From assembly GCA_009781635.1 (NCBI GenBank), contig WQXU01000020.1:1-48140 (forward strand): a stretch of 48,140 bases of DNA, in the 5' to 3' direction. Both the position numbers and the translations under genes were made by a program. The notes beneath the pieces were generated by a model. It was not told where the DNA came from. It worked only from the letters and a program-made list of their open reading frames with translations, and ran no database searches. Numbering within the stretch: position 1 is the first letter of the stretch; every line of letters begins with the position of its first letter. Shown here piece by piece: positions 25,163 through 28,619 of this stretch. Origin of the DNA: Treponema sp. (GTDB taxonomy: Bacteria > Spirochaetota > Spirochaetia > Treponematales > Breznakiellaceae).

Positions 25163-25555
25163 ATGAAAAAACTCATTTTCGCATTAATCTTATTGGCTTT
25201 AGTTACGCCCGTCTTTGCTATGGACGAAGTTTACTATATTAACGTGCCTGTAGAAAGGATATATCCGTCATCAACTGGCTATGTTGTTCAGTACCGCAGC
25301 AGTTCAAGCGTGATTGCCACTATTGGCATTCCCAATGACTGGTTCAGCGACTCAGCCGGCAGCGCTGAATTAATCCGCCTGCCTTCAGCGGCTGACTGGC
25401 CGACAATGTCGGTATTTTACATAAACGGCGAGTTTAGCCATGTAAGGCTTTATGTACACCGCGTTAAAGGCCATCATACATGGGGTAATATTCCGCAGGG
25501 CACAGATGTAAGCAGGTTCTTTACAGACAAGGAATCGTTTAAACTAGATTTCTGA
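25163..25555 (+). CDS. small secreted protein, unknown function
   Basis: A 130-residue protein with a clear signal peptide (cleavage likely after VFA, residue 19) and no lipobox cysteine. I do not recognise a family. The mature part is about 110 residues, rich in Tyr and Ser, with the segments DWFSDSAGSAELIRLP and HHTWGNIPQGTDVSRFF; its pattern suggests a small beta-sandwich. GGAGGT precedes the ATG. Its stop TGA shares a base with the ATG of the phosphoesterase gene, so the two are coupled, yet one product is exported and the other cytoplasmic. Confidence 0.65.
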   Translation: MKKLIFALILLALVTPVFAMDEVYYINVPVERIYPSSTGYVVQYRSSSSVIATIGIPNDWFSDSAGSAELIRLPSAADWPTMSVFYINGEFSHVRLYVHRVKGHHTWGNIPQGTDVSRFFTDKESFKLDF

Positions 25556-26547
25556 TGAATTGCGCGCCGGTTCCGGCTGAACTTATTGAATACATAAAAA
25601 AGGGTTCCTGTTTTATAATAGCCGGTCATAAAGAACCCGACGGAGACTGCATAGGAAGCCAGCTTGCCCTTCGCAGCGCGCTTTTACGCCTGGGCAAGAA
25701 GGCAATTGTATGCGCCGAAGGCCCCTATAAAAGAACGGAACTTAGAGATTTTATAGGTCAATTAGTATCAAATCCCTTTGACAGCGGACACAATTATTCT
25801 GATGCAAGGGTAATTATTGCAGATTGCTCAGGCAGGGAAAGAACAGGAGAGCTTTATGATTTTCTTGATAAATTTCCCTGCGCTATAATTGATCATCATG
25901 CGGCAGTGACTCATCCGCCTTCAACCTTGCAGGCTCCTGTCTATGTTGATGCAAACTCTCCTTCATGCACATTGTTAGTATATAAAATAATAAAAGCTCT
26001 CGGCCTTGAACTGACAAAGGATGAAGCAACCCTGCTTCTCTTCGGCCTTTGCACAGACACCGGATTTTTCCGGCACATGACTGAAAAAAATGCCGGTGCG
26101 TTTGAAGCTGCGGCAGACATGATCCGCAGCGGTGCAAGTCCAAAAGAAATATTTAATATTATTAACGGCGGAAAAAGTCTTAGTTCCAGAATACTGACAG
26201 GCAATATTCTTTCCAGAACCGAATCTTATTTTGACGGCAGGCTCCTTATAAGCTGGGAAACTCTGGATGAATATAACACCTTTGGGCTTGAAAGCCGGGA
26301 TTCTGACATTTTAAATCAATTGCTTTTATCGGTAAAAGGAGTTGAGGCAACTGTAATTATCCGCCAGGAGTGTGCCGATAACTGTACTGTGAGTTTAAGA
26401 TCTATTGATAAAATTGATGTGTCGCAAATAGCATCTTCCTTTGACGGAGGCGGACACAAAAATGCATCAGGCCTCACAATGAAAGGAACCATTTCATTTG
26501 TAAAACAAAATATGTTAAATTCATTTTCCGCCTTTTTCACCCGTTAA
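25555..26547 (+). CDS. nrnA: DHH/DHHA1 phosphoesterase, NrnA-like
   Basis: Cytoplasmic manganese-dependent phosphoesterase of 330 residues. It has the DHH-family motifs HKEPDGD (His25, Asp29, Asp31), DCSG (about 90), IIDHH (about 112) and the DHHA1 substrate-binding GGGHKNASG (about 298). NrnA proteins degrade very short RNA or linear dinucleotides and dephosphorylate 3'-phosphoadenosine 5'-phosphate. Size and motif order match NrnA rather than the membrane-bound GdpP or RecJ. The start overlaps the preceding stop as TGATG. Substrate preference (nanoRNA, pApA or pAp) cannot be told from sequence. Confidence 0.85.
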   Translation: MNCAPVPAELIEYIKKGSCFIIAGHKEPDGDCIGSQLALRSALLRLGKKAIVCAEGPYKRTELRDFIGQLVSNPFDSGHNYSDARVIIADCSGRERTGELYDFLDKFPCAIIDHHAAVTHPPSTLQAPVYVDANSPSCTLLVYKIIKALGLELTKDEATLLLFGLCTDTGFFRHMTEKNAGAFEAAADMIRSGASPKEIFNIINGGKSLSSRILTGNILSRTESYFDGRLLISWETLDEYNTFGLESRDSDILNQLLLSVKGVEATVIIRQECADNCTVSLRSIDKIDVSQIASSFDGGGHKNASGLTMKGTISFVKQNMLNSFSAFFTR

Positions 26548-26653: not shown

Positions 26654-27517
26654 ATGCATCAGACAATAAACGAATTATATTTAGGATATCTTGCCGGCAA
26701 TATTGACAGGGCGGATTTTGAAGGATCTGTTTACATTCATCTTATGAACAATAAGGAAAAAACATGCCTTGCCCACTGGAAAAACGATGAGTATGAGGAT
26801 TTTATATCATGGTTTTATCCGCGCCTTAGAAAATCCATCGATTCATACAGGGAGACAGGAGCGTCATTCGAAGCCTTCATGAACAAGTATCTGCTTATAT
26901 CTTCCAGGGAATATCAGACACGCACAGCAACAAATGCAATGACAGAATACTCGGCCTGGAGCGCGCGTATTCCTGAAATGTATGCCCGCGAAGAGCCTCC
27001 TGTGTATGCGCATAAACAAGCCGAAGATTTTTTATCGCTGCTTATTATTGATAAAATGGGAAAAAGAAATTCAAAGCGTATTTTGGCGCTTGTTCTGAAA
27101 TGTTATTATTACGTATCAGCGGACTTTGCGGAAAGAATCGCTCCAAAGATTGGATTAAAAAGCGGTGAATTACTGGAGATGCTGGATAAAATACGGAAGA
27201 CAAGAGAGAAAAAAGACGATAAAATCTACCGGCTTAAAGAAAGAATCTATTGCCAGTATTACAGATGCATTATCTATGATAAAAGACTTTCTGTTATAAA
27301 GGAAAATTCATCTGCTTATAATAAATTAAAACTCCGGCGGGATAAGGCAAAAATAAGACTTGAAAAAATGCGAAACCGCATGATGAACATACGTACAGAA
27401 GCAACAAACAAACAGGTAGCGGATGTAATCGGCATTAAAAAGGGCACTGTAGATTCAAGCCTTCACCAGTTAAAACTAAAGTGGGAAGAGATGGCGAAAA
27501 AGGCGGACTTAAATTAG
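26654..27517 (+). CDS. divergent sigma-factor-like protein
   Basis: A 287-residue protein not assignable to a named family with certainty. Residues about 44-90 look like a sigma-70 region 2 (EDFISWFYPRLRKSIDSY, then SFEAFMNKYL and SSREYQTR). The C-terminus, about 253-280, looks like region 4 with TNKQVADVIGIKKGTVDSSL, a helix-turn-helix as in ECF sigma factors. Between them lies an unusually long, Lys/Arg-rich helical region of about 150 residues. AGAGG precedes the ATG by 6 bases. It may be a spirochaete-specific sigma-like regulator or a DNA-binding protein that reused both ends. It stands alone, convergent with galM, with no obvious anti-sigma gene. Confidence 0.55.
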   Translation: MHQTINELYLGYLAGNIDRADFEGSVYIHLMNNKEKTCLAHWKNDEYEDFISWFYPRLRKSIDSYRETGASFEAFMNKYLLISSREYQTRTATNAMTEYSAWSARIPEMYAREEPPVYAHKQAEDFLSLLIIDKMGKRNSKRILALVLKCYYYVSADFAERIAPKIGLKSGELLEMLDKIRKTREKKDDKIYRLKERIYCQYYRCIIYDKRLSVIKENSSAYNKLKLRRDKAKIRLEKMRNRMMNIRTEATNKQVADVIGIKKGTVDSSLHQLKLKWEEMAKKADLN

Positions 27518-27590
27518 CAGATTGAAACTGTTAAATGTTTACAAAAAAGAACTCTCGCAGAGACGCAGGAACGCAGAGCTCGCGGAGTAA
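27518..27590. other. intergenic stretch with dispersed repeat
   Basis: The 73 bases between the convergent sigma-like and galM genes contain GCAGAGCTCGCGGAGT at 27571-27586, which matches the 606-621 copy (GCAGAGTTCACGGAGT) in 14 of 16 positions. CTCTCGCAGAG just before it is a weak inverted repeat. No clear terminator is seen. Confidence 0.5.
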
Positions 27591-28619
27591 TTACCATGAA
27601 AATGAAAACACTGCTTTTTCGCTGTAGTCCTTGCCCGGAGATGCAATACACGGCGGAAAACTTTTCTGATTCGGCGTGTCAGGGAAGTGCTGTGTTTCCA
27701 GGCAGAAACCGGAATATTTATTGTAAACAGAGCCCTGTTTCCCGGTGACTTCCTTAAGGTGTTTGCCGGTATAAAATTGAACGCCGGGCTGGGTTGTAAA
27801 TACCTTCATGGTACGGCCGGAATCAGGCTCGTATACTTCGGCGCAGGGCCGTAATTTGCCGGGCACTCCATCCACAACAAAGCAATGATCATAGCCTCCA
27901 AAAAAATATCTGTTGGCGCTGATACTCCGGCGTTTTCTAAAATCAAAATTTGTTTCATTAACCGGAATCAGGCGGCCTGTCGGAATACATTGCCTGTCAA
28001 CCTGCACATATAACGAGGAATAAAGAAGAACTTCATGGGATAAGATACTGCCCTTCCCTTCTCCGGCAAGATTAAAGTATGCGTGGTTTGTCAGGTTGAC
28101 AGGGCAGCTTTTGTCAACGCTTGCATGGTAATTGCAGATAACTTCATTGGACTTTGTAAGTCCATAGCTGACAGTTGCTTTTAAATTACCGGGAAAACCG
28201 CAGTCACCGTCTGGGCTTTCAAGTTCGAACCGCACATAGACGCCGTCGTTTTCTTCGTAGCTGTCAGATTTCCACAGAAGCCTGTCAAAACCGCGCGGCC
28301 CTGAATGAAGAGAGTTTCCGTTATCATTCGCAAAAAGAGGGAAAGAGTTTCCAAAGATATTAAAAGATGCGCCTTTTATACGATTGGCAAAGCGCCCGGC
28401 TGTAACGCCGATATATGGTTTGTTATCCAAATAACCGTCAAGACCTGAATAGCCAAGCAGTACATCATTCATTATGCCTTTACTTGAGGGAACAAAAAGG
28501 CTTGTCCATGCTGCGCCGAAATTTGTAAGTGAAAGTTTTAAATCTCCCGCGCTGAGAGTATAAAGCTTAACTTTTCTCCCGTCAGACAGAATTCCGAAAT
28601 TTTGCTTTTTAATTTTCAT
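27591..28619 (-). CDS. galM: aldose 1-epimerase (mutarotase)
   Basis: Interconverts alpha and beta anomers of galactose or other aldoses in the cytoplasm. The 342-residue length is normal. Family motifs are GVTAGRFANRI (about 76-86), the catalytic His in NLTNHAYFNL (about 176-185), YDHCFVVD (about 243-250), and a C-terminal GFCLETQHFPDTPNQ with the catalytic Glu. There is no Shine-Dalgarno sequence; a TATAAT lies 6 bases before the ATG and a perfect 11-bp hairpin spans that box and ends at the start codon. The gene is thus probably read from its own promoter, which overlaps the stop of the outer-membrane barrel gene, and not from the upstream operon. Confidence 0.88.
   Translation of the reverse strand: MKIKKQNFGILSDGRKVKLYTLSAGDLKLSLTNFGAAWTSLFVPSSKGIMNDVLLGYSGLDGYLDNKPYIGVTAGRFANRIKGASFNIFGNSFPLFANDNGNSLHSGPRGFDRLLWKSDSYEENDGVYVRFELESPDGDCGFPGNLKATVSYGLTKSNEVICNYHASVDKSCPVNLTNHAYFNLAGEGKGSILSHEVLLYSSLYVQVDRQCIPTGRLIPVNETNFDFRKRRSISANRYFFGGYDHCFVVDGVPGKLRPCAEVYEPDSGRTMKVFTTQPGVQFYTGKHLKEVTGKQGSVYNKYSGFCLETQHFPDTPNQKSFPPCIASPGKDYSEKAVFSFSW

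Follow-up and report, generated by a model that had tools for sequence, protein, structure and literature searches.

The window, a stretch of 48,140 nucleotides from a Treponema genome, carries on its forward strand an intact open reading frame at 26654..27517 (ATG start, 287 codons, end coordinate taking in the stop) which encodes a divergent ECF-type sigma-like protein of 287 residues. A sigma-factor-like gene had been pointed out at this place in an earlier note and is confirmed here as an intact and conserved gene. It starts 106 bases past the gene of a DHH/DHHA1 family phosphoesterase on the same strand (25555..26547, +), itself preceded by a gene for a 130-aa protein with a signal-peptide-like start and no Pfam family over cut-off (25163..25555, +). 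The next gene, on the opposite strand, encodes an aldose 1-epimerase, and the intergenic region before it contains a repeated CGCAGAG-like motif (27545-27592). Promoter- and terminator-like sites around the sigma-like gene occurred at about the level of shuffled sequence, and nothing in the window reached Rfam gathering scores. Eight further sigma-70 matches in the genome of the window exceed the TIGR02937 cut-off, so that the protein would represent an additional factor.

Gene order was compared among 57 loci of the window's class, taken from 61 stretches after four with no called family ORF (L060, L063, L069 and L087) had been left out. The phosphoesterase and the 130-aa protein are upstream syntenic partners, found within three genes of the family gene in 39 and 36 of the 57 loci, respectively. 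The partly conserved row reads small secreted protein, DHH phosphoesterase, sigma-like gene, RdgB-like gene (20/57) and PepF-like peptidase (13/57). An ornithine carbamoyltransferase (OTC)-like gene lies upstream in nine loci and an aldose epimerase gene follows on the other strand, as in the window, in 12; the OTC, RdgB and PepF names are our reading of the sequences. Matches to TIGR00042 adjoin the family gene in three genomes (G166, G252 and G273). In a 1.1-Mb Treponema genome (L291), DHH-like and secreted-protein-like ORFs stand beside a TIGR00042 (RdgB) match of 144.9 bits, just below cut-off, with no sigma-like gene in between.

Distribution of the family in Spirochaetota

With the window protein as single query, matches were obtained in 50 of 59 related genomes and, for the window's own genus, in 34 of 36 (window genome counted). 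One family gene of this genus (L020) contains an in-frame TAA. The family statistics given below are based on 149 distinct members, that is 159 collected proteins minus 10 repeats, the L020 product with its internal TAA stop and a fragment (L099) being excluded. A pattern derived from the family, [LI]G[IVL][PAS]KGTVD[SA], was run on one genome per species in 84,980 species and returned 110 stretches, 97 of which are relatives. Eighty loci were kept, 17 further relatives being left out, and a fragment (L195) was dropped from the 80.

A profile built at the level of the window's order matched 206 of 392 genomes of the phylum and hinted at absence from several Treponema genomes. This absence was rejected in part by a new search with a class-wide profile: among 16 class genomes missed by the order-level profile, nine matched at E≤2.6e-11, three weakly (E 0.007-0.06) and four not at all. 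The earlier note had spoken of a lineage-specific protein, which holds provided that the lineage is taken as roughly the whole phylum: 79 of the 80 loci kept from the pattern scan carry spirochaete names, and the class-wide profile matched 101 of 140 sampled genomes of the phylum (50 of 73 genera) at E≤1e-4, a tally which is approximate because many of the outside-class matches are weak or lie mainly over region 2. Among the genomes shown, the class-wide profile found no match in any of five Borreliaceae-like genomes, in the 1.1-Mb Treponema genome or in one genome from the taxonomic family of the window, and the search comprised 19 more non-matching genomes beyond those shown. In view of the non-matching Borreliaceae-like and 1.1-Mb Treponema genomes, the gene may mark regulation given up by host-restricted spirochaetes. 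In another genome (G135, same genus as the L270 and L272 genomes discussed below), the family match on contig 8, at 1011298-1011942, is interrupted by stop codons (seven TGA, two TAA), which may reflect gene decay or misassembly.

This distribution bears on the possibility that the gene is a late sigma-like gene derived from a phage or plasmid, for which weak PHROG matches to transcription regulators and viral sigma homologues in the viral fold search, the latter without significance, could be quoted. The fact that 47 of the 50 relatives with a match have just one and the conservation of the neighbours argue against it, as does the scan of viral contigs, where eight pattern matches included no relative. 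We regard such an origin as extremely improbable.

Domain anatomy and predicted fold

The AlphaFold2 model of the window protein, obtained with 80 aligned sequences, has a mean pLDDT of 91.0 and is almost all-helical. A sigma region 2 fold, supported by a model of residues 1-112 and by the profile match of residues 43-96, occupies residues 1-103 (26654..26962, +) with helices 5-13, 19-32, 44-64 and 72-103. Its region 2.2-type helix (residues 44-64; 26783..26845, +) keeps Asp49 and has Ser-Trp where ECF sigma factors have the Gln-Glu/Asp pair, and its region 2.3-2.4-type helix (residues 72-103; 26867..26962, +) keeps Phe72 and the aromatic residue at 75. A variable linker follows (residues 104-139; 26963..27070, +), partly of low confidence in the model, then a sigma-4.1/HTH-like unit (residues 140-182; 27071..27199, +) with the motif LxLKC, which comprises helices 140-149 and 156-165 and the start of helix 170-214. 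Next comes a basic antiparallel helical hairpin, defined by the model and the family alignment (residues 183-249; 27200..27400, +). The protein ends with a region 4.2-type helix-turn-helix, assigned from the profile match of residues 240-287 (residues 250-287; 27401..27514, +), whose recognition helix starts with KGTVD (residues 263-267; 27440..27454, +).

Across the family the linker varies from 25 to 71 residues (median 36), with a net charge of 0 in the window protein and a family median of -3. In 143 of 149 members the hairpin is 66-67 residues long; its net charge is +13 in the window protein (family median +9, minimum +1). The earlier description of the middle of the protein, as some 150 residues of charged helix, needs one correction: this part is no single helix and consists of the linker, the 4.1-like unit and the hairpin.

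The predicted fold was compared with known sigma factors, a check that the earlier note had proposed. Region 2 predicted alone (residues 1-112) gave a pLDDT of 80.6. In a Foldseek search against 350,542 PDB chains its best four matches were all sigmaE region 2, at non-significant values (E 0.9-3.4), and nothing reached E≤0.001 either with this model or with the whole one. Upon re-alignment of 19 chains with VIA-align, a procedure in which middling Z values are common for helical models, the first six rows, which include five entries of E. coli sigmaE, were all sigma factors (Z 6.6-7.8), after which Z dropped to 3.6 in the following row. The sigmaE region 2 structure 2map aligned over 93 of 96 residues with Z 7.8 and rmsd 3.7. 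The comparison thus retrieved sigma region 2.

With the whole model, fold searches were populated by many unrelated coiled coils matching the hairpin, and the top row of the re-alignment (9a4r_A) combined Z 8.9 with rmsd 12.6. The sigma-4 end of CnrH, 67 residues (chain positions 123-189), was spread over model residues 118-285, so that about 100 model residues were skipped. On this alignment the skipped residues would be those of the hairpin, in keeping with its being an insert. Most likely the insertion is within region 4, between the 4.1-like unit and the 4.2 helix-turn-helix.

Sequence evidence for sigma identity

Taken singly, the window protein matched no Pfam family at E≤1, found PDB sequences at E 0.066 at best, and reached NCBIfam TIGR02937 with E 0.0021 and 17.7 bits, below the cut-off of 42.9; as these values are near chance, a family profile was needed. 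Among the 80 aligned members, 69 matched TIGR02937 at E≤0.01 and none exceeded its cut-off (best 41.9 bits, L202 from Alkalispirochaeta alkalica). The class member L077 attained 42.8 bits against 42.9 and narrowly passed the Pfam Sigma70_r2 cut-off (24.2 versus 24 bits). Scans of the window protein and of members returned no aligned family with another role over a curated cut-off.

Profile-profile comparisons were evaluated against column-shuffled controls. Residues 43-96 matched ECF region 2 with a score of 24.9 (15 controls, maximum 15.4), the HHalign probability being only 24%, and residues 240-287 matched region 4.2 with 53.9 and 97.0% (control maximum 13.3). The comparison of region 2 with group 1/3 sigma factors gave 20.2 for a control maximum of 19.5. 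The near-invariant positions of 80 members are not restricted to the DNA-binding end and include the region 2 residues Y12, G69, F72 and Y75. The assignment of both ends to sigma-70 regions 2 and 4, made in the earlier note, therefore stands, on the strength of family profiles above shuffled controls and of the region 2 fold. The class-wide profile itself scores 20 ECF sigma factors at 25.9 bits or less and 22 group 1/3 factors at 19.6 bits or less.

For the middle unit, residues 133-190 matched ECF region 4 with 21.5 (22% probability) and group 1/3 sigma factors with 18.2, in the region 3 of the latter, the control maximum being 14.4 in both cases. An identity with region 3, whose 3.1 portion the motif of the unit resembles, was considered and is less preferred than region 4 because of the higher score of the latter. 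A slight likeness exists between the unit (residues 140-182) and the C-terminal helix-turn-helix (66.95%, 21.9 versus a control maximum of 14.4), and a partial duplication possibly lies behind the two. The core of the hairpin (residues 190-250) resembles no sigma region: it scored 11.5 against ECF sigma factors, with a control maximum of 11.9.

Residues of region 2.2 and of the recognition helix

In the recognition helix, K263 is found in 141 and D267 in 145 of 149 members. Among 20 ECF sigma factors the position equivalent to D267 holds K in 13, M in five and R in two; none of 30 relatives from outside the class has Asp there. Two positions further, Arg is present in 14 of the 20 ECF factors versus a single one of 149 members. 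In region 2, of 149 members, 142 have an acidic residue (D or E) at position 49, 139 have Phe72 and 146 have Tyr or Phe at position 75. The Gln-Glu pair of region 2.2, invariably Q (20/20) followed by E (15) or D (5) in the ECF factors, is absent from the family (Q at 52 in 2/149, E at 53 in 4/149). The missing pair was at one stage taken as an argument against core binding, which was dropped: 16 of 16 FliA/WhiG-type spirochaete sigma factors (L110 and L213-L240; among the 22 of group 1/3) have Gly/Ser then Tyr/Phe at this site, and the loss is therefore not countable against core binding.

The chief rival to a sigma factor is suggested by these residues, with the acidic recognition helix as its best argument. 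According to it, the protein of the window's class derives from a sigma factor and has kept the fold without being a sigma factor any longer, its present role being that of a regulator which binds DNA or of an accessory which binds polymerase without selecting promoters. The replacement of a basic or neutral recognition residue by D267, the loss of the Arg two positions on and that of the region 2.2 Gln-Glu would all suit such a protein. So would the place of its gene in a row with that of the DHH phosphoesterase, joined in 20 of 57 loci by an RdgB-like one, and the failure to find an adjoining anti-sigma gene in the class. The near-invariance of Y12, G69, F72 and Y75 in region 2 and the retained acidic residue of region 2.2 weigh against it, and the Gln-Glu pair is equally missing from FliA/WhiG-type sigma factors. 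On balance we judge this former-sigma reading possible but somewhat doubtful.

Relatives outside the class and anti-sigma genes

Twenty-nine genomes of other classes of the phylum, mostly chosen for weak matches to the order-level profile, all matched the class-wide profile at E≤1e-5, and 30 outside-class members were drawn from them. Their class-wide profile scores (40-91 bits) are high by selection, since they were picked with the same profile. They align with the window's family over the whole length (99.79%; residues 133-249, 95.3%), the hairpin alone giving only 28% (18.1, control maximum 7.6). At the hairpin position at least 50 residues are present in 27 of them, 34 residues in two (L305 and L308) and none in L310. 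The middle unit was found in 25 of 30. On an unrooted quick tree, 23 class members form one side of a branch (SH-aLRT 99); this tree has 53 rows (the 23 plus 30 others, one of 24 class picks being missing from the set), SH-aLRT support only, hairpin columns included and many long branches. Five outside-class members (L314, L320, L319, L321 and L313) group together on it with support 99; they have the hairpin, and their middle unit is mostly missing (21-25 residues).

The profile of the 30 relatives matched that of the 20 ECF sigma factors with 98.98% and E 6e-18, region 2 giving 95.95% and the C-terminal helix-turn-helix 97.4%. Their middle unit matched nearly all of ECF region 4 with 58% (25.0 versus 10.8 for the control), and their hairpin had no match in the ECF factors (7.0, control maximum 8.0). 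Curated cut-offs were passed by L272 for TIGR02937 (48.0 versus 42.9 bits) and by L266 for Pfam Sigma70_r4_2 (27.2 versus 25.7); the Pfam scan of L270 and L272 returned no sigma domain.

Zinc-type anti-sigma genes were searched by the HxxxCxxC motif. In the class, no protein bearing it occurred among 429 neighbours within four genes in the 57 loci, a count confined to the motif-bearing type, and the scanned neighbours of the window contained no anti-sigma gene, in agreement with the earlier note, which had seen none nearby. Outside the class, an HxxxCxxC protein is encoded directly downstream in 10 of 30 loci, some of which stop short of a following gene. Pfam scans of 13 downstream neighbours gave six over the zf-HC2 cut-off (L266, L298, L302, L303, L310 and L316); L310 has this neighbour, yet its family member is without hairpin. 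Directly downstream in L272 (765-1259) and L270 (768-1268) lies a gene for a protein of 164-166 aa without zinc motif and without Pfam family over cut-off, whose N-terminus, judged from its sequence, looks like that of an anti-sigma factor minus the zinc motif.

Thus less diverged homologues outside the class score as ECF sigma factors, and some have an adjoining gene for a zinc-finger anti-sigma factor, which suggests the ancestry of the window's family. These relatives already make unlikely that the protein is a nucleic-acid-binding protein with two helix-turn-helix units and a coiled coil, resembling sigma factors by convergence only: they pass curated cut-offs, have zf-HC2 neighbours, match the ECF profile and align with the window's family over the whole length. 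Region 2 and region 4 matches of the family, moreover, are co-linear and above controls. What could be put forward for convergence are the weak single-sequence scores and the numerous matches of the hairpin to unrelated coiled coils; we hold it to be very improbable.

Discussion

The window protein is probably a divergent ECF-type sigma factor of Spirochaetota that has lost its anti-sigma factor. The computations show its region 2 fold and the interruption of its region 4, where a basic hairpin of near-fixed length separates a 4.1-like unit from a 4.2 helix-turn-helix, and we infer from the relatives that the direction of change was loss of the partner in the window's class. Several points were counted against this explanation: the acidic residue at 267 (145/149), the lost Arg two positions on and the absent Gln-Glu; the low HHalign probabilities (region 2, 24%; middle unit, 22%), the want of a significant Foldseek match and a window protein far below curated cut-offs; and finally L270 and L272 without Pfam sigma domain, and L310, which with its zf-HC2 neighbour has no hairpin.

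In established ECF structures region 2 sits on the clamp, the -10 element is opened and the linker passes through the RNA-exit path, and in known complexes region 4 makes contact with both the beta flap and the -35 element. Since the placement of region 2 and of the linker is that of an ECF sigma factor, the simplest inference is that region 2 would dock on the beta' clamp and open the -10 element, and that the linker would thread the RNA-exit path as in other ECF factors. The region 4 unit would lie against the beta flap and the -35 element. Given its basic character and almost constant length, the hairpin most likely grips upstream DNA or polymerase; it would project from region 4 and make extra contacts to either. 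Because no anti-sigma gene was found adjoining the class gene, control must come from elsewhere, and activity could be set through the amount of protein, through the hairpin or through a partner whose gene lies at another locus. Such a protein would regulate transcription, as already supposed in the earlier note.

A more elaborate history can be drawn as well, which we consider rather unlikely: a phylum-wide sigma lineage would have had its region 4 split early by the basic hairpin, and one class would then have dropped the anti-sigma factor and fixed an acidic recognition helix, the hairpin becoming its regulator or main DNA grip. We know of no characterised sigma factor that recognises promoters by such a hairpin.

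Sigma factors direct RNA polymerase to its start sites and set expression programmes in all bacteria. The sigma-like branch described here is old, little-described and, in the window's class, mostly single-copy. As it falls below curated cut-offs in most of the scans, a regulator of this kind could easily be overlooked by annotation, and the series from anti-sigma-paired to unpaired members offers a natural test of sigma-factor rewiring. In the open-access literature, judged by titles and abstract openings, no paper on this family was found.

Textbook ECF sigma factors consist of regions 2 and 4 only, joined by a short linker and without region 3, and an adjacent cognate anti-sigma gene is common among them, although not universal. 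The family resembles these group 4 factors (TIGR02937) by its region 2 fold, its 4.2 helix-turn-helix, their co-linear order and the anti-sigma neighbour of some outside-class relatives. It differs by a hairpin of about 67 residues inside region 4, behind the sigma-4-like unit, and, in the window's class, by the recognition-helix Asp, the lack of the region 2.2 Gln-Glu and the fact that no anti-sigma gene was found. In FliA/WhiG-type sigma factors, region 3 is present and region 4 is continuous. Those of the phylum share with the family the lack of the region 2.2 Gln-Glu (16 examined) and a similar length (261-271 aa), whereas the class-wide profile gives the 22 group 1/3 factors no more than 19.6 bits.

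Non-canonical ECF sigma factors carry extra N- or C-terminal extensions, such as SnoaL, TPR or Cys-rich ones, according to a review (PMC8999054). These factors lack an anti-sigma factor, and no anti-sigma gene was found in the window's class; in both there is extra protein that could take over regulation. The extra part of the window's family is internal to region 4 and is a plain hairpin. The words insertion, coiled and hairpin do not occur in the main text of that review. In Leptospira interrogans, LIC_10225 is listed as an unclassified ECF factor of 301 aa with a sigma-ECF region at residues 21-194 (review, PMC12655853); length and unclassified status fit, and by this description it may be a Leptospira member of the family. 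Borrelia BB0246, at first considered as the orthologue, was ruled out, being an M23 endopeptidase according to PMC13393453. Against this background, the ECF-type regions 2 and 4 are the known part, and a conserved sigma branch with a hairpin inside region 4 is the new one.
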